Source: Trichocoleus sp. FACHB-46 (GTDB lineage Bacteria > Cyanobacteriota > Cyanobacteriia > FACHB-46). Taken from it: a stretch of DNA of 64,000 nt. The translations under genes and the position numbers were made by a program. The stretch covers positions 186,001 through 250,000 of the forward strand of contig NZ_JACJOD010000008.1 in NCBI RefSeq assembly GCF_014695385.1, in the 5' to 3' direction. Of this stretch, positions 504-14,361 are shown piece after piece; position 1 is the first letter of the stretch, and every line of letters begins with the position of its first letter. Under the pieces are notes generated by a model, which saw only the letters and a program-made list of their open reading frames with translations, had not been told where the DNA came from and searched no databases.

Positions 504-743
504 TTAATAGCGAGGCAGATGATGGCGAACAGTCTGAATTTTTTCTAACCAAGTCAGCAAGTCGCGATCGCTGACTCGTTGACCGCGCGATCGCAGTTGT
601 AGCATGTCTGCTAGTTCTGTGGCAGGTCGTCCGGTTTGTTGGGTCCAGGCGGTGAGCAGAGTTTCCGGGTCTAATAATTGGTTGCCCAACCCTAAAGCTC
701 GTTGCACTTGTAATTGCTCTTCTTTACGAATCGTGTCAATCAC
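504..743 (-). CDS. Small conserved-context protein in the MoxR operon (79 aa)
   Basis: A 79-residue frame with a GTG start at 741-743 fills the gap between the DUF4350 gene (12 bp upstream) and the MoxR gene (7 bp downstream) on the same strand. The product is soluble and mostly helical, with no signal peptide or membrane segment. I do not recognise a family. Its tight packing in the operon and plausible codon use argue that it is real, perhaps a small adaptor of the MoxR/DUF4350/DUF4129 membrane system. The ribosome binding site before the GTG is weak, so the exact start is uncertain. Confidence 0.6.
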
Positions 744-755
744 AAACTCGCTGGA

Positions 756-1658
756 TTACGCCTTGTAGAGGGCTCCTGCCAAAGCTTCGATATAGGCCTT
801 GCTGTTATCCACAGCGGGAGTCGTGACTGGAATCGGCTGACCAAAGCGGCGATTGTGTGCCCAAATGCCTAAGAGCAGCAATACTCCCACTTGAATGAAT
901 CCAGGCAAGAGAGCAGTGTTGGCTAAATAAGCTAGAAAGCTGCGCGATCGCTTTTCTGAACCTGAACCTGAACCTGTAGCATCAGCAGGGTCACGATAGC
1001 CGTGCAGATATTCATCGACCCAAATTGACTGTTTGGGCTGAGTCACCAGTTGAGCTAGAAATTCATAGTTGCCGCGATCGTCTTGATAGGCGTTGGCTGC
1101 AAGATGGGGTGTAGTGGCCCAAACGACTCGACCTTGACCCAAAGATTCTTGCCAAACCACGGCCCCAAAGCGATCGCCCAGGACTAGGCTGGTGGTGCCC
1201 TGCTTCGGTAAGTAATGCCGTCGTCGAGTTTCCACTCGCACGTTGCCGACTTCACTGGTTTGCCAGGTGCGGAAAGTTGCCTCGGTGACAGGAGCATGGG
1301 CACCTAAAACGACTAGCGTATTGCCTGCCTCTACCCAAGCTTTTTGGTTCTCGTCGAGGGACGCTACCTTCAGCCTGCTGTTAATTTGTAACAGCGTGAT
1401 CTTGCCCTGGTTCGCTGAGCTGGGTTGCTTTTGAGCTAATTGCTCAAACGGTTGCTGCCAACGCTGGATGGGAGTGCCGCGATCGCTCATGAAACTGTAC
1501 CAAGCACCGTAACCATCGGGAGCGCGGCTATAAGTTGAACCACTACGGGAAGCACTTTGAGTCGGAGCACTCAGCAAGGTGAGTAGAGCGATCGCTCCAA
1601 TGACCAAAGCCCCAAACCACATTTGTCGTCGAGAGAGATTTTGCGCAGGATTCATCAA
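756..1658 (-). CDS. DUF4350 domain-containing membrane protein
   Basis: The 300-residue product has one membrane segment near residues 14-32 (WFGALVIGAIALLTLLSAP) and a second near 248-266 (LLPGFIQVGVLLLLGIWA), enclosing a periplasmic or lumenal DUF4350 domain. Short motifs such as SRAPDGYGAWY and VDEYLHGY are typical of the family. DUF4350 proteins occur with DUF4129 and MoxR genes and are thought to form a membrane complex of unknown task. The ATG overlaps the stop of the upstream DUF4129 gene in ATGA, which indicates translational coupling. A Gly-Ser run (GSGSGSE) lies just before the second membrane segment. Confidence 0.85.
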   Translation of the reverse strand: MMNPAQNLSRRQMWFGALVIGAIALLTLLSAPTQSASRSGSTYSRAPDGYGAWYSFMSDRGTPIQRWQQPFEQLAQKQPSSANQGKITLLQINSRLKVASLDENQKAWVEAGNTLVVLGAHAPVTEATFRTWQTSEVGNVRVETRRRHYLPKQGTTSLVLGDRFGAVVWQESLGQGRVVWATTPHLAANAYQDDRGNYEFLAQLVTQPKQSIWVDEYLHGYRDPADATGSGSGSEKRSRSFLAYLANTALLPGFIQVGVLLLLGIWAHNRRFGQPIPVTTPAVDNSKAYIEALAGALYKA

Positions 1659-3166: not shown

Positions 3167-6100
3167 ATGCAGGATTTACGACCCACGGTAGATCGTTCAG
3201 GTCAAGAGGTTTTACTCCACAAAATTACCACCTGCATTCGGCAATCTCTCGAATTATCAGAAATTTTGACTGCGACCGTTAAAGAAATGCGGTCTTTCTT
3301 AAACACCGATCGCGTCATGATCTATCGCTTTCATCCCGATGAAAGTGGTGAAGTTATTGCTGAATCTATTGAGCGCGATCGCTTGCCTTCACTGTTAGGT
3401 CTCAACTTTCCGGCTGATGATATTCCGCCACGAGCCCGCGAGTTATTCCTCAAGGCTCGCCAGCGCTCTATCGTAGACCTCGCTTCCGAACAAATTGGTT
3501 CAAGCCCTTTAGATAACCCAGAGACAGGGTTGCCTCTCCAGGCAGAAGATATTCGTTATCGTCCTGTAGACCCTTGCCACATCGCTTACCTAACGGCAAT
3601 GGGCGTGAAATCTTCCTTGGTCGTGCCGATTTTGCATCAAGATGCCCGGACCCAGACTGGCGAACCGATGCTTTGGGGGTTATTGGTATCTCATCATGCC
3701 CAACCCCGAATTATTGCTGAGTCGGAGCTTCAGGTAGTACAGCAAGTGGCTGACCAAGTTTCGATTGCGATCGCCCAAGCAGAATTGCTGCGGCAAGCCA
3801 GGGCTCAAGCGGCAAAAGAATTCAGTATCAACCAAATCGCGACTCTACTCCATACCCTGCCAACTCTACAGCTACAAGCAGCTTTAGAGCGCACGGTAGC
3901 CATACTTCAAGGATCTGGTGGCAGACTCTACACCTTCGCACTCGATCCCACCCAAGCCACGATCGCAACCTGTGGAGTTCAACCGCAGATGCCAGGACAA
4001 GACCAGACCTGGATGATCGAACAAAGCCCCCTCTGGCAGCAGTACTTTAGACCTGCCGAATCAAAGGCCGAGTCTTGGCAGCAGTCGATTACTGACCTTT
4101 ATAAGGAACCAGAACTGCGAGTTTTAGCGCCAGCATTTCGGGGTACGCTCATTCGTGGCATCTTGGTGGTGCCGCTGCAATATCGCCAACAATTTTTGGG
4201 TTACCTCACGGTTTTTCGAGATGCGATCGATACCGCAACCCTGTGGGCAGGGCAGTTTGACTCGGATCAGCGACAATTTCAACCCCGCAACTCTTTTGAG
4301 GCTTGGCAAGAACTCAAGCAAGGCCAAGCCTTGCCTTGGACGCCAGAAGATTGGGAACTGGCTGCTGCCTTAGGGGAGCACTTCTCAATGGCCATCCAGC
4401 AGCAGCAGCTTTACCAACAAATACACGGGTTGAATGTCAGCCTGGAGTTGCAAGTTCAGCAGCGCACCCAAGAGCTAGAGCAAGCCTTAGAGTCTGCTCG
4501 TCTCCTGAGGCAGGTGAGTGACCAAATTCGTAGCACACTAAATTTGCCGACCATCCTGCAAACGATTGTGCGAGAAGTCCGCGGCCTGCTCGATACCGAT
4601 CGCGTGGTGATTTATCAATTCGTGCGGGGTTGGCAAGGGGAGATTGTGGTGGAAGAGGTGGCATCGGGGTGGCAGTCAATTTTGCATGAAAAATATGCAG
4701 ACGAATGTTTCCCGACCGAGCATGCCAGCTTGTACCAGCGCGGTCGGATTCGCGCGATCGATCATGTCAAGCAATCTAATTTGCATCCTTGTCATATCGA
4801 ATTTTTAGACAATCTACAGGTCCAAGCCAACTTGGTAGTGCCAATTCGTATGGGTGAGCAACTGTGGGGCTTGCTGATTGCCCATGAGTGCCGAGGGCCG
4901 CGCCAGTGGCAAGCCTTTGAAATGGAGCTGCTAGAACAGTTGGCCGACCAAGTGGCGATCGCGATTCAGCAAGCAGAATTATATGAGCAAAGCTGTGCGA
5001 CAGCGGCGATGGCAACCGCACAAGCTAAACAGATTGAACAAGCGGCTGAGCAACAAAAAACGTTGTTCGAGGTGATCACCAAGATTCGTGAATCGTTGGA
5101 TTTGCAAACGATTTTTCAGGCAACAGCCCGAGAAGTGCGCCAACTGCTTAACGTCGATCGCGTGGGGGTGTTTCGGTTTGAGCCAGAGTCTAGTTACCAA
5201 GATGGTGTCTTCGTTTCCGAAAGTGTGCTGCCTGGTTTTACCTCCGTACTAGACCGAAAAGTGCATGACCACTGTTTTGGCGAACAGTATGCCCCCTACT
5301 ATCGGCTCGGTCGAATTCAAGCGGTGGCTGATCTATACGCTGCCAACTTGAGCGATTGCCACCTGAAGATTTTGGAGCAGTTTCAGGTCAGAGCGAATTT
5401 GGTGGTGCCGCTGATTCAAAGTGATGAACTCTGGGGCTTGTTGTGTGTACATCAATGCTCTCAGCCTCATGCATGGACAACGTCTGAGATTGAGTTTGTA
5501 ACTCAAATTGCCGCGCAGTTGGGAGTGGCAATTCAACAAGCCGAATTGCTGACTCAAACCCAACACCAGACGGTGCAACTCGCTCAAACCCTGAACGAAC
5601 TGCAACAAACCCAGACGCAACTGATCCAGACTGAGAAAATGTCGAGTTTGGGGCAACTCGTGGCTGGAGTGGCGCACGAAATCAACAATCCCGTCAATTT
5701 TATTTATGGCAATGTCAACTATGTCAGCGAATACACCAAAGAATTGCTGACGCTGCTCCATCTTTATCAGCAACACTACCCCAGCCCTGAGCGGCCCATC
5801 CAAGAATATGCTGAATCAATCGAGCTAGACTTCTTAGCCACAGACTTGCCTAAAATGTTGGCTTCGATGAAAGTGGGAACCGATCGCATTCGTCAGATCG
5901 TGTTGTCACTGCGGAATTTTTCCCGCCTAGATCAGGCTGAGAAAAAACCTGTCGATGTCCATGAAGGCATTGATAGCACCTTGATGATTCTGCAACATCG
6001 CCTCAAGTTGGCGAATGATCCAACGGCAATTAGAGTCGTGAAGCAATATGGGTTGTTGCCCCTAGCGGAGTGCTACGCGGGCCAACTCAACCAAGTCTTC

Positions 6101-6475
6101 ATGAATATCATCAGCAATGCTATTGATGCGATCGAGAATGACAACCAGCAACGTCTAGCTCAAGGTCTGCCGTTCAATCCAGGGTTAATCAAAATTGAGA
6201 CAGAACTGATACAGTCTGCGTCTTATGCTTCTCAAATGCTGATCCGAATTAGTGACAATGGCCCTGGCATGTCAGAAGCGGTACGATCGCGAATTTTTGA
6301 TCCATTCTTCACCACCAAGGCTGTAGGCCAAGGTACAGGGCTAGGCCTATCGATCAGTTATCAGATCGTGGTAGAAAAACATGGCGGCATGCTCAAATGC
6401 ACGTCCCAAGTCGGCCAAGGAACTGAGTTTTTAATTGAGATTCCAATTCGCTCAGGCTGGACCATTCAACCGTAA
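3167..6475 (+). CDS. Multi-chromophore photoreceptor histidine kinase (knotless phytochrome GAF-PHY, two DXCF cyanobacteriochrome GAFs, HisKA, HATPase)
   Basis: The 1102-residue protein has no N-terminal PAS domain. GAF1 (about 20-205) carries the phytochrome DIP motif at 85-87 and a chromophore Cys-His at C137-H138. Residues about 215-415 look like a PHY domain: a tongue with LWAG near 359 and PRNSFEAW at 373-380. A coiled coil leads to GAF3 (about 445-605), with DECF at 512-515 and Cys-His at 542-543, and GAF4 (about 635-795), with DHCF at 701-704 and Cys-His at 731-732. These are the two-cysteine DXCF class. The kinase core has phospho-acceptor H837 in VAHEINNP and ATP-lid motifs SDNGPGM and GTGLGLS. 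The layout predicts a red/far-red sensor plus two blue- or violet-responsive sensors on one kinase; wavelengths are inference. No response regulator is adjacent. Confidence 0.92.
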
Positions 6476-6505: not shown

Positions 6506-8596
6506 TCAACGCTTCCACGTAGCAATAGATTTCTGAGCTTGAGCATAAGCAGGTGTGCCTGATGGAACGAGAGTCGCAGTTTGCAAGGCTGCCTGAATCC
6601 GCCCCCGTGACGCTCGCAGTTCCGCCATTCCTAAGATGATATTGCTCCATTCGCCCGTGAGTCGTTGGGCTTCCAAATACCCTGGTTGGCCTGCGGGGAT
6701 GCGTCTGACCAATGCGATCGCGCGACTGTAAGAAGACGCTTCCCCCCGCCGCAACGAACCCTGAGCTTGGTCAATTAGAGCTTGGTTAGTCTTTTGCTGC
6801 TGAGAGCTTTGTTGCCATCCCGAGATCGCTTGCTGAGCTTGACCATAAACGGCAGCATTATTCTTAGGCACCAAACGAGCGGTTTGTATCGCCTCGCCAA
6901 ACTGACCTTGCTTGGCTCGACCCTCCGCTAAGTCTAAAATCACTTGACTCCAGCGTTGAATATCTTGTTGGGCTTGGTCATAGAGCGGTTGACCTGGCTT
7001 GATTTTGCTGGCTTGAGCGATCGCTTGATTAAACCGAGAGGCTTGATTCGGTCGAATCGTTACCCTGGCTTTTTCCAATAAATCTTGATTAACCTGCTGT
7101 TCTGCCTGAGTTTTCAGATTACGGTACTGTTCGGTTTGCTGATTGGCAGGTACCTGATTAAGCAGGCGCAAGGCTTCTTGAGATTTATTTTGTTGCAGCG
7201 CTGTCTGAGCGGCAGGCAGCAGTTGTGTGGGTGGCACATCCGAGGCGGCAACTGTAGCAGGAGGACTAGGCGCAGCCTTGTCTGGGACGGGGGTGGGGCT
7301 CGCCACCGGAGCCGTTGCTGTCGCACCTGTGGTTGAAGTCGCCACCGTTGCCACAGGCGTAGGAGTGGACTTCGACGATTGGGTGGCTGTGGAGACAACA
7401 GCATTGTCGATGGGCTGACCTGTAAAGGCTGCTTTATTGCGAATGATCACACCTGAGCACAAAACAAATGCAATCAAACCGCCCCAAACCAGCAACCGTC
7501 GCCAAAATACGCTATCTGCCATTTCTGGTTCTGCTTCGGGATCTCGCATAGGGGATTGAGGGGATAGAGGACTAGATGGGGCGGGTTGTGTAGTAGAACT
7601 AGCTGGCCTACGAGTCAACCGTTCTAAAATCTGGTAGGGCGAGGAACGAGAAGAGGGGTCAGCCTTGCCAGAATCAGCCGTGCCAGAATCAGCCGTGCCA
7701 GAATCACCCGTAATAGGGAGAGTAGAGAGACCAATTCCCGCTTGGGGTGGTGCTTGCAAGGATAAATAGCCACGAGATGCATCTGAGTCGAGCGCAGCGA
7801 TTGTGTTAGCCGAGTCAGATGGGCGATCGAGGGTATTCCAGGTGCTTGCAGCCACCATTGAGTGAGGCAAGATGCCCTGCTGCCCTTTCCCTAGAGGCAC
7901 TAGCACTACCGCATGCTGAGCGGGTTGCCAATAGTGCTCAGTCAGTTCTGGGAGGCGATCGCGCAAAAAATAATCTAGATCGGCGAGGGTGTCACATTTA
8001 CCAAACCGCAGCCCCTCCAACAAGGCAGCCGTAAAGCACCCATGATGCAAGCTGGCAGTCTCGTACGAGAACTCACCCGGTTCGCAAGCCAGGATTGTGG
8101 CGACGCTGAGTTGACGGGCACATTCCAAGGTCTGAGTGCCCAGCGGTTGATCCGATGGCAGGCCTTGGCTCCGATTCATATCCAAGCATAACAAGGCTGT
8201 CTCGGCGGCAATGGCGTCCAATTGCCCCAGTAGCGATCGCACTGAGATGGCAGTACCAGGAATATCGGCTGGATCACCATCAATCGGCATTAAGTAGTCT
8301 TGTCCTTGGTAACAAACCCCATAGCCGCTAAAGAAACACCAAACCAAGTCACCGGGGTGCACCCACTGTTGGCAAAACTGATCAATCCAAGCTTGTAACA
8401 AACCTCCAGTGGGATAAGTGGAGCGATCTGCAACGGGTAACGAAGCATCGGTTAGCAATAGGCACTGTTCGGCTGGGAAGCCTGCTTCCTCCACTAAAAA
8501 ATCATGCAAAGCCTGGGCGTCCTGCTGGGCATACCTTAGAGGCTGCAAGAACTGATATTGATTGATACCAATTGCGATCGCCCAGTGTTTCACCAT
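6506..8596 (-). CDS. Caspase-fold (orthocaspase-like) membrane protein with substituted catalytic dyad
   Basis: The 696-residue product begins with a caspase p20-like domain (about 1-230): AIGINQYQFLQPLRYAQQDA, then FFSGYG where active caspases have SGHG, and LDMNRSQG where they have a D-x-C-R-S motif. The catalytic His is therefore Tyr92 and the Cys is Asn141, predicting a proteolytically dead protein. A Pro/Ser/Thr linker holds a short DNA-level repeat (7661-7715) encoding GTADS units. A single membrane segment (about 376-395) and a Thr/Pro-rich stretch follow. The C-terminus has two copies of a roughly 95-residue TPR-like helical repeat ending in WSQVILDLAEGRA or WSNIILGMAELRA. Pseudo-orthocaspases are known in cyanobacteria. 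Convergent with the photoreceptor kinase. Confidence 0.88.
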   Translation of the reverse strand: MVKHWAIAIGINQYQFLQPLRYAQQDAQALHDFLVEEAGFPAEQCLLLTDASLPVADRSTYPTGGLLQAWIDQFCQQWVHPGDLVWCFFSGYGVCYQGQDYLMPIDGDPADIPGTAISVRSLLGQLDAIAAETALLCLDMNRSQGLPSDQPLGTQTLECARQLSVATILACEPGEFSYETASLHHGCFTAALLEGLRFGKCDTLADLDYFLRDRLPELTEHYWQPAQHAVVLVPLGKGQQGILPHSMVAASTWNTLDRPSDSANTIAALDSDASRGYLSLQAPPQAGIGLSTLPITGDSGTADSGTADSGKADPSSRSSPYQILERLTRRPASSTTQPAPSSPLSPQSPMRDPEAEPEMADSVFWRRLLVWGGLIAFVLCSGVIIRNKAAFTGQPIDNAVVSTATQSSKSTPTPVATVATSTTGATATAPVASPTPVPDKAAPSPPATVAASDVPPTQLLPAAQTALQQNKSQEALRLLNQVPANQQTEQYRNLKTQAEQQVNQDLLEKARVTIRPNQASRFNQAIAQASKIKPGQPLYDQAQQDIQRWSQVILDLAEGRAKQGQFGEAIQTARLVPKNNAAVYGQAQQAISGWQQSSQQQKTNQALIDQAQGSLRRGEASSYSRAIALVRRIPAGQPGYLEAQRLTGEWSNIILGMAELRASRGRIQAALQTATLVPSGTPAYAQAQKSIATWKR

Positions 8597-9070: not shown

Positions 9071-10630
9071 ATGCGAGAGTTTTCCCCTTCCCACCTTCGT
9101 TTTTTACCACTCCCGCAACTTCTGAGCTTGGCAACCTGCTTAGGATTAGGGGGTAGCGTTTGGCTCACCCAAGCTGCGATCGCTCCTCAAGCGGCTCAAG
9201 CTTATACTGCCAGAGTAGATGTGGCCCTGGATCGCCGCACCGGGGAGAGTTATGAAACGCTTTTGCGCCGAGCGGAAATTGCCGCTAGAGCCGCGGCTCA
9301 GCGCAGTTTCGATCGCGACATTTTGACCAGTCAAGTGTCTGTCATCGTCTCAGCTCAAAGTGAAGGCTCAGTTGTGCCCGTACTAAATCTAGATGTCAGT
9401 CGTACTCAATGGCGCAGCCGTCCTGATCCACAACGTTGGGCAACCTACTTTCGCACTTCGCAAGCCTTGTTACGGCTAAATCAAGGCGTAGCTGAAGAGA
9501 CCGCACCCGCTCAAGCCGCTCCACCGCCACCTCCGGCTGTACCCTCGCAACCTGCTACCGTACCAGTAGCACCCACACCAGGAGCGCCAGGAACCAACAA
9601 CCCAGCAGGTAGCCGAGCGCCTGGTACACCAGCCGCACCAAATGGTGGAACCGGAACGGGCGCGGGCACTGGAACGGGTACAGGCACAGGTACTGGAACG
9701 GGTACAGGCACAGGTACTGCCGCTCCTGGCGCTACAGGTACCGGAGCGGGCTCGGGTGCAGGCACGACTGCACCTACTGGTGGCACAGGTACTGGAACTG
9801 GGACTACAGGTGGAACAGGCACGACTGCACCTGGCGGCACGACTGGCACAGGTACCGGAGCGGGCGTAGGTGCAGGCACTGTTGCACCTACTACCGGAAC
9901 TGGCACAGGTGTTGGAACAGGAGCAGGAACTGGAACCGACACAACCGTTCCTGGTGGTGTGACTGGGACTGGCACAGGTGTTGGAACGGGCGCAGGAACT
10001 GGAACTGACACAACCGTTCCTGGAACTGTTCCGGGCACTGGAACTGGAGCTAATACAGGCAACAGAACTGGGCCTAGCACTACTATTCCGGGTGGTGTGA
10101 CTGGGACTGGCACAGGTGTTGGAACGGGCGCAGGAACTGGAACCGACACAACCGTTCCTGGAACTGTCCCCGGAACTGGCACTGGAGTTAATACGGGCAC
10201 AGGTACTGGGACGGGTGCGGGTGCAGGCACTGTTGCACCTACTACCGGAACTGGCACAGGTGTTGGAACAGGTGCAGGACAGGGGGGCACTACTGGAACC
10301 GGAACGGGACCAGGTAGCGGCACTCAAATAACTCCGACTGGACCTGGTACTCTTTCCCCTGGAGCATCCACAACGCCTGGAAATCAAGGGCCAGTGATTA
10401 CGACTCCGAATGGTCAAACTGTTGCGCCTGGCGCTCAACCGTCTGGGATCGGAACACCAGGAATAAACAGAACGACAGCACCAGGCACTGGTACAACCAC
10501 AACGCCCAACAACACGCCCAACAACGGCTCTTTCACTATTACGACTCCCAATGGGCAAGTCATTACACCAGCTACACAGCCTAATCGAACCACAACTCCC
10601 AATCAGTCAACTGATGGGGTAAATCGTTAG
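9071..10630 (+). CDS. Secreted Gly/Thr-repeat low-complexity protein
   Basis: The 519-residue product starts with a signal-peptide-like segment ([15 protein letters not shown], cleavage probably after QAAQA near residue 43). A folded N-terminal region of about 100 residues follows ([20 protein letters not shown] through [13 protein letters not shown]). A Pro/Ala-rich hinge leads into about 230 residues of imperfect Gly-Thr repeats (units like [25 protein letters not shown] and GGVTGTG) encoded at roughly 9645-10345. The tail is Pro/Thr/Asn-rich with ITTPNGQ motifs repeated. Such repeats suggest an extracellular or envelope polymer-like protein. Low complexity makes length variation likely. 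No enzymatic motif is visible. Confidence 0.8.
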
Positions 10631-13215: not shown

Positions 13216-14361
13216 TTAAGGTTGTTTGGCTGGCAGACGGACGATAAAGGTACTACCTTTGCCTAACTCCGATTCTAGGTCAACAGTACCTTGATGAGTC
13301 TCAATAATGCGGCGTGACAAGTAAAGACCCAAGCCGCTGCCAGAACGTCGATGCTGACCTTGGCGAAAACGCTCAAACAGCATCGCTTGGTCTTCTGGCG
13401 AAATCCCAGTACCTGTGTCCTTGACTGTAATCACCGCCCAAGTTGGAGCCGAGGCAGTAGCCGTTCCGGGTGCTGGGGTAGAAGACAATCCGATAGTGAT
13501 AAATCCACTGTCTGTGAACTTAATGGCGTTGCCTACCAAGTTGGTCAAGACCCGATGGATCTCCAAGCGATCGCCCGAAACATGGGAGGCAACAGGATAG
13601 CCTAGGTGGTCACCTACATCCACTTTCAACGCGATGTTTTTGTCAGCAGCTAGCGGTGCCAGTTCTTGAGCAACTTCTGTAACTAGGTCTCGTAAATCTA
13701 CGGGGCTAAACGAAAAGCTTTTCCGCCCTGCTTCTAATCGGTACACCTCTAAGAGTGTGTTGACCATTTGCAGTAGGTTTTGATTGCTCCGAGCCATCGT
13801 CACGATCGCGTCGTTCATGTCTGGAGAGAGTTCTCCTAAAGCGCCTTGGCGAAACAAGCCCATCATGCGATCGGCGGCGACAAGAGGAGTGCGGAGGTCG
13901 TGGGCTAAGCGGGAAACAAAGTCTTCGCGCTGGCGGGCAATGTGATCGCGCTCGTCTACGCTGTGTTTTAGGCGGAGCAGCGATCGCACCCGAGCCAGCA
14001 GTTCGTCAAACTCTACAGGTTTGCGAATAAAATCATCAGCTCCTGTGTCCAAGCCTTTGGCCACGCTGGGCTGATCGTAGGCTGTGATCAGCAAGATAGG
14101 AATAAAAGGTAATTTCTGGTTGTCTCGAACCCGCCGTGTCACTTCATAGCCATCCATTCCGGGCATCATGACATCCAGCAAAATCAAGTCGGGAGGAAAT
14201 TCATCAATTTTGGCTAAAGCTGCCATACCGCTATCGGCAATGTCAACCTTGTAATCCTCTTCCTCTAAAATTGCCTGGATTAGAAATGAGTTGTCAGCGG
14301 AATCATCTACAACAAGAATTCGATCAACTCTTGGAGACTGGGCAAAAGGCGAATTGTTCAT
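13216..14361 (-). CDS. Receiver-histidine kinase hybrid
   Basis: The 381-residue protein has an N-terminal receiver domain (about 14-130). Its phosphorylation site is the Asp in LILLDVMMPGMDG and the conserved Lys is in FIRKPVEF. A HisKA domain has its phospho-acceptor His in SRLAHDLRTPL. A HATPase domain carries NLVGNAIKF, VKDTGTGISPEDQ and GSGLGLYLSRRI. There is no membrane or sensory domain, so it probably receives a phosphoryl group or signal through its receiver and relays it. It is soluble, and its partner is not encoded nearby. Confidence 0.92.
   Translation of the reverse strand: MNNSPFAQSPRVDRILVVDDSADNSFLIQAILEEEDYKVDIADSGMAALAKIDEFPPDLILLDVMMPGMDGYEVTRRVRDNQKLPFIPILLITAYDQPSVAKGLDTGADDFIRKPVEFDELLARVRSLLRLKHSVDERDHIARQREDFVSRLAHDLRTPLVAADRMMGLFRQGALGELSPDMNDAIVTMARSNQNLLQMVNTLLEVYRLEAGRKSFSFSPVDLRDLVTEVAQELAPLAADKNIALKVDVGDHLGYPVASHVSGDRLEIHRVLTNLVGNAIKFTDSGFITIGLSSTPAPGTATASAPTWAVITVKDTGTGISPEDQAMLFERFRQGQHRRSGSGLGLYLSRRIIETHQGTVDLESELGKGSTFIVRLPAKQP

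Follow-up and report, generated by a model that had tools for sequence, protein, structure and literature searches.

The gene at positions 3167-6475 (+ strand) of the window, the 64,000-nucleotide stretch of DNA analysed here, is predicted from its sequence to join a red/far-red sensor and two sensors of a usually blue-sensing class on one signalling enzyme. The product is likely to be a soluble, phycocyanobilin (PCB)-binding, multi-colour sensor histidine kinase in which a knotless red/far-red phytochrome precedes two independently acquired dual-cysteine cyanobacteriochrome (CBCR) modules. Sensor kinases of this general kind, with several light sensors, are already known, and the novelty lies only in how known modules are arranged. 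What is unusual is the pair of putative blue-type sensors, of separate ancestry, behind a red/far-red unit.

Gene and domain architecture

The open reading frame is intact, running for 1102 residues from an ATG start with zero internal stops; the matching frame on the reverse strand contains many stops. Pfam recognises HATPase_c, three GAF domains and a PHY domain that clears its cut-off, with HisKA below its own, and the overall order is GAF1-PHY-GAF3-GAF4-histidine kinase. All features described below lie on the + strand unless marked otherwise. An earlier note on this DNA had named a DIP motif and Cys-His in GAF1, a PHY-like tongue and cysteines 514, 542, 703 and 731, had placed GAF3 and GAF4 in the DXCF class, and had proposed a single histidine kinase output. 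Every one of these motifs is confirmed in place: DIP at 85-87, Cys137-His138, the tongue's LWAG at 359 and PRNSFEAW at 373, and the four cysteines. The DXCF assignment agrees with the sequence of both domains (DECF with C514/C542; DHCF with C703/C731), and the output carries HEINNP at 837 together with the HATPase_c boxes. These motifs are not chance occurrences, since the cysteines are spaced by 28 residues as in TePixJ and the residues are kept in both sister species.

The gene is present in all three genomes of the genus with the same gene order, flanked by genes at 2487-2942 and 6506-8596. The full-length orthologues in the two sister species show 84.9-85.0% protein identity (dS about 1.1, overall dN/dS 0.08). 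Conservation is highest in GAF3 and GAF4, with 90-93% identity and dN/dS of 0.03-0.06, all of these ratios being approximate because the dS values are high. DECF, DHCF and both of their Cys-His pairs are unchanged in both species. The gene is under purifying selection.

Several neighbouring genes deserve mention. The gene at 6506-8596 (- strand) is convergent with the kinase gene and stays at the same position in the two sister species, with an identity of about 71% that is below that of the genes beside it; its product looks caspase-like on reading the sequence. At 507-1655 (- strand), an uncharacterised gene whose counterpart in one sister species (G001) encodes 397 aa has an in-frame TGA at 756-758 that interrupts it. 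The remainder is open and 82% identical to that counterpart, and the interruption reflects either recent decay into a pseudogene or an error in sequencing. The protein encoded at 9071-10630 (+ strand) contains a long Gly/Thr-rich low-complexity stretch and varies in length across the three species (519, 535 and 654 aa), with a 187-aa part that is 86-87% identical.

The genome itself encodes a single Fe_bilin_red bilin reductase, which NCBIfam identifies as PcyA (362.6 bits against a threshold of 206), so that PCB should be available as the expected chromophore. It also encodes six PHY-family proteins (L001-L006; G000 contigs C22, C8, C11, C33 and C76). Two of these have near-full-length PHY matches, and four, including the product studied here, have the short second-half match of knotless forms.

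The knotless phytochrome module

GAF1 (aa 12-213; 3200-3805) is a knotless-phytochrome bilin-binding GAF domain by Pfam and by its match to 6oza/6ozb (E about 1e-69), with about 60% identity and an rmsd of about 2 Å to 6ozb. The domain begins at aa 12, and the open reading frame has no N-terminal PAS domain. Within GAF1 lie the DIP motif, Asp85-Ile86-Pro87 (3419-3427), and the canonical chromophore pair Cys137-His138 (3575-3580). Asp85 occurs in 88 of 88 knotless homologues, and C137 and H138 in 87 of 88.

The PHY domain follows directly (aa 214-428; 3806-4450). When excised, it scores 46.7 bits against the PF00360 cut-off of 27; the match is confined to the latter half of the Pfam model, and the overall PHY sequence score is low. 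Its tongue (aa 353-387; 4223-4327; LWAG ... PRNSFEAW) is well conserved, with W360, S376 and F377 in 87 of 88 homologues and R374 in 74 of 88. An AlphaFold model of aa 1-432, built from the 88 homologues, reached a pLDDT of 85.5 and shows the tongue arms as strands 354-361 and 379-387 of a hairpin. When this model was compared with the PDB by Foldseek, Cph2 (4bwi) and SyB-Cph1 (8w26) made up the top three matches. The best solved relative by sequence is the SyB-Cph1 GAF-PHY structure (8w26; E 6e-91, 309 bits, aa 10-435), and the others are 6oza/6ozb and 4bwi. Over the whole GAF1-PHY module the rmsd to solved structures is 6-8 Å, which probably reflects the inter-domain angle, because GAF1 taken by itself superposes on 6ozb to about 2 Å.

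Sequence and fold thus bear out the proposal in the earlier note that residues 20-415 form a PAS-less phytochrome. That note had named the absence of a PHY fold after GAF1 as fatal to its reading; examined with AlphaFold and Foldseek, the region has the PHY fold. The module displays the sequence and fold features of knotless (group II, Cph2-like) phytochromes: a PAS-less GAF-PHY unit, Cys-His with DIP, and a tongue with WxG and PRxSF. In All2699, such a GAF1-PHY is red/far-red, and its tongue contacts the chromophore pocket via an Asp-Arg pair, D87-R380 (PMC6696110). By analogy, GAF1-PHY is predicted to act as a red/far-red switch, with Asp85 and Arg374 the likely counterparts of that pair.

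The cyanobacteriochrome modules

Two further GAF domains separate the phytochrome from the kinase. GAF3 (aa 440-612; 4484-5002) is a Pfam GAF domain of the second-cysteine CBCR type, with DECF starting at aa 512 (4700-4711), second cysteine Cys514, and canonical Cys542-His543 (4790-4795). GAF4 (aa 629-800; 5051-5566), likewise found by Pfam, adjoins the kinase and is a DHCF-type CBCR, with DHCF starting at aa 701 (5267-5278), second cysteine Cys703, and canonical Cys731-His732 (5357-5362). In both domains the second cysteine precedes the canonical one by 28 residues, equal to the spacing of C494 and C522 in TePixJ (PMC6955287). The DXCF motif, whose chemistry is described in PMC11284453, predicts a short-wavelength, Cys-ligated dark state in each. 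We also looked for the WXDXXL motif of the XRG (red/green) class (PMC11284453) in GAF3 and GAF4. Neither has it, the Trp position being Tyr510 and Val699 respectively, and Phe stands at the Leu position or close to it. The XRG residues of that study are not transferable to colour prediction here. TePixJ Gln526, which moves near the bilin on photoconversion (PMC6955287), maps by alignment to Phe546 in GAF3 and Ile735 in GAF4.

Solved CBCR GAF domains fit a GAF3-GAF4 model well (for example, TePixJ 4glq with a TMt of 0.92 and an rmsd of 1.3 Å), and a continuous helix runs between the two domains (model residues 152-211). Each GAF is modelled confidently; their relative orientation is untrustworthy at a pTM of 0.51.

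GAF3 and GAF4 share 42.7% identity, and each is 60-65% identical to domains in other proteins. A 146-row GAF tree places GAF3 in a clade of 44 rows (support 100/95) whose members have the second cysteine and mostly stand directly behind a knotless phytochrome. GAF4 lies elsewhere, with GAF4 of one sampled homologue (L058) as its neighbour (100/89). An AU test on a smaller tree, in which the six domains of the genus were constrained to group together, cost 143.8 lnL units (p-AU 3e-124). The 146-row tree contains several long branches, a non-CBCR row (L026, from a 1717 aa ORF) and mis-aligned GAF1 rows (L029, L033), and the conclusions on ancestry are drawn from the smaller tree and from those inner clades of the large one that have support. 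These comparisons reject a common ancestry: GAF3 and GAF4 are not duplicates but descend from two cyanobacteriochrome lineages.

Within the GAF3 clade the cysteine is nearly always kept, and the motif Asp, present here, is often replaced (by S, P, E, L, K and so on). Motifs such as SECF, PECF, PGCF and EECF are seen across this lineage (L027-L061, L158-L175), where the Asp is mostly gone and the second cysteine kept, and a dual-cysteine photocycle may operate there without need for the Asp. The nearest characterised reference to GAF3 is RcaE (green/red), a weak placement at 69/27 in a small tree.

Histidine kinase output and partner

The histidine kinase core (aa 806-1095; 5582-6451) comprises DHp and HATPase_c (7.2e-22), with NQVFMN at 975, DNGPGM at 1030, DPFFTTK at 1045 and GTGLGLS at 1056. 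HisKA scores 19.5 against a Pfam cut-off of 26.9; nonetheless, HEINNP is present, and its His837 (5675-5677) is the predicted phospho-acceptor, in an H-box that aligns in all true homologues.

A neighbouring response regulator was considered as partner and rejected. Single-query phmmer, which could miss weak matches, found no receiver-domain gene in the roughly 4.5 kb flanking each side of the kinase gene in any of the genus's three species, and found receiver matches near the gene in six of 58 loci. A gene for a receiver-kinase hybrid lies further away in the window, at 13216-14361. The partner regulator is presumably encoded elsewhere in the genome.

Frequency among knotless-phytochrome proteins

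How common this arrangement is was gauged from 92 distinct knotless-phytochrome proteins, which were fetched as homologues and are a sample biased towards the query and no census. The largest group (43 of 92) has the phytochrome, then one second-cysteine GAF and the kinase, so that a kinase carrying a phytochrome plus one dual-cysteine-type GAF is commonplace among filamentous cyanobacteria. In 35 of the 92 the sole CBCR is a second-cysteine GAF with a residue other than Asp. Less frequent are XRG + XRG (16/92), XRG alone (12/92), and XRG + DXCF in either order with nothing further (5/92); six proteins have no CBCR after the phytochrome, and three have other mixtures. Exactly DXCF + DXCF occurs in three of 92, all from this genus within the sample. 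It has four near relatives there: two with DXCF + DXCF + XRG (L025, L026) and two with a pair of second-cysteine GAFs, at least one of which departs from DXCF (L058, L149). In this sample, the doubled DXCF form is rare. The first two relatives are knotless-phytochrome kinases of about 1300 aa with four predicted bilin sites.

Across many cyanobacteria, a fixed chassis of knotless phytochrome and kinase holds intervening GAF domains that vary in number and colour class. This natural series of 0, 1, 2 or 3 extra colour modules, in which the doubled DXCF form is seldom found, can probe how serial sensors control one kinase and what their order does.

Proposed mechanism and alternative readings

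We infer chromophore attachment, colours, cross-talk between modules and the sign of kinase control along the following lines. PCB would probably be attached through the canonical cysteine in GAF3 and in GAF4. In the dark, a reversible second thioether from the DXCF cysteine to bilin C10, predicted for both domains and usually accompanied by PCB-to-PVB isomerisation, would give the short-wavelength state. Illumination would isomerise each bilin, and in the DXCF modules the second thioether would break to yield a longer-wavelength state. The changes would travel along the helices linking GAF1-PHY, GAF3, GAF4 and DHp. Because all modules stand in series on one helical spine, their photostates may jointly set the autokinase/phosphatase activity at His837. 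Cph2 and IflA as precedents make it plausible that one protein integrates several colours.

Two departures from this scheme would alter its parts list. One would make the region after GAF1 another GAF without PHY identity and GAF1 a lone CBCR. The low overall PHY sequence score and the half-length Pfam match lean that way, but the domain scores above the cut-off, the tongue motifs are kept in almost all of the 88 homologues, and the tongue hairpin and the matches to 4bwi and 8w26 rule out a loss of PHY identity; we regard such a reading as very improbable. The other would derive GAF3 and GAF4 from a recent tandem duplication, with the second copy redundant or only extending dynamic range. Both domains do have DXCF, Cys-His and the equal cysteine spacing. 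Against this, each is closer to domains elsewhere than to its partner, they sit in separate supported clades, and the tree and AU test rule the duplication out, leaving it hardly credible.

The colours are less secure. The literature searched yielded no published spectra for the GAF3 or GAF4 lineage. Rockwell 2015, as represented where it is cited in PMC5240096, describes DXCF lineages with predictable photocycles. Blue- or violet-type colours are a prediction from motifs for both domains and less certain for GAF3, whose second cysteine may act unlike that of TePixJ, since most members of its lineage have no motif Asp. It is possible, if unlikely, that the predicted light sensing holds for GAF1 and GAF4 and that GAF3 has drifted into a single-cysteine red/orange/green photocycle or a structural role. 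The frequent loss of the Asp with the cysteine kept, the weak grouping with RcaE and Phe546 in place of TePixJ Gln526 would fit such drift; yet almost all of the lineage retains the second cysteine, and the present GAF3 combines a complete DXCF with Cys-His and ranks among the two most strongly constrained domains (dN/dS 0.03-0.04). The reading with two dual-cysteine modules is preferred. A bolder version of it, which we hold only tentatively, makes the protein a spectral comparator in its own right, with conditional logic, that reads three distinct colour pairs (six photostates), each of which could shift the others; the different lineages of GAF3 and GAF4 would imply that their photocycles differ.

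Comparison with known systems

The closest solved GAF-PHY is that of SyB-Cph1 (8w26, 2lb5), the comparison being with the solved 429-residue chain, which is GAF-PHY only. IflA of Fremyella diplosiphon reportedly has two photosensory domains with blue, green, red and far-red responses, one domain affecting the other. By this description, the present protein has three photosensory units rather than two. A paper citing IflA (PMC4853435) states that its adjacent sensory domains interact. Cph2 of Synechocystis PCC 6803, termed a four-colour sensor, combines a knotless GAF-PHY with a blue/green CBCR (PMC5812497). It too has a knotless phytochrome and a CBCR in one protein and is the top fold match (4bwi), but it has one CBCR and a GGDEF/EAL (c-di-GMP) output with no histidine kinase.

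All2699 of Nostoc/Anabaena PCC 7120 shares the order of knotless phytochrome with tongue, CBCR GAF and histidine kinase. Its GAF1 converts from 638 to 685 nm, and its GAF3 binds PCB and converts from 645 to 595 nm (PMC6696110). It has one CBCR GAF, as judged from the three GAFs reported, and this is red/orange, whereas the present protein has two, both DXCF. In Anabaena and Nostoc, the homologues of about 922 aa in the sample have an XRG GAF. The Nostoc four-module kinases (L007-L023, L150-L157) share the chassis of knotless phytochrome, two CBCR GAFs and kinase, as well as the length, at about 50-55% identity; in most, the two CBCR GAFs are XRG + XRG or XRG + DXCF, from other lineages.
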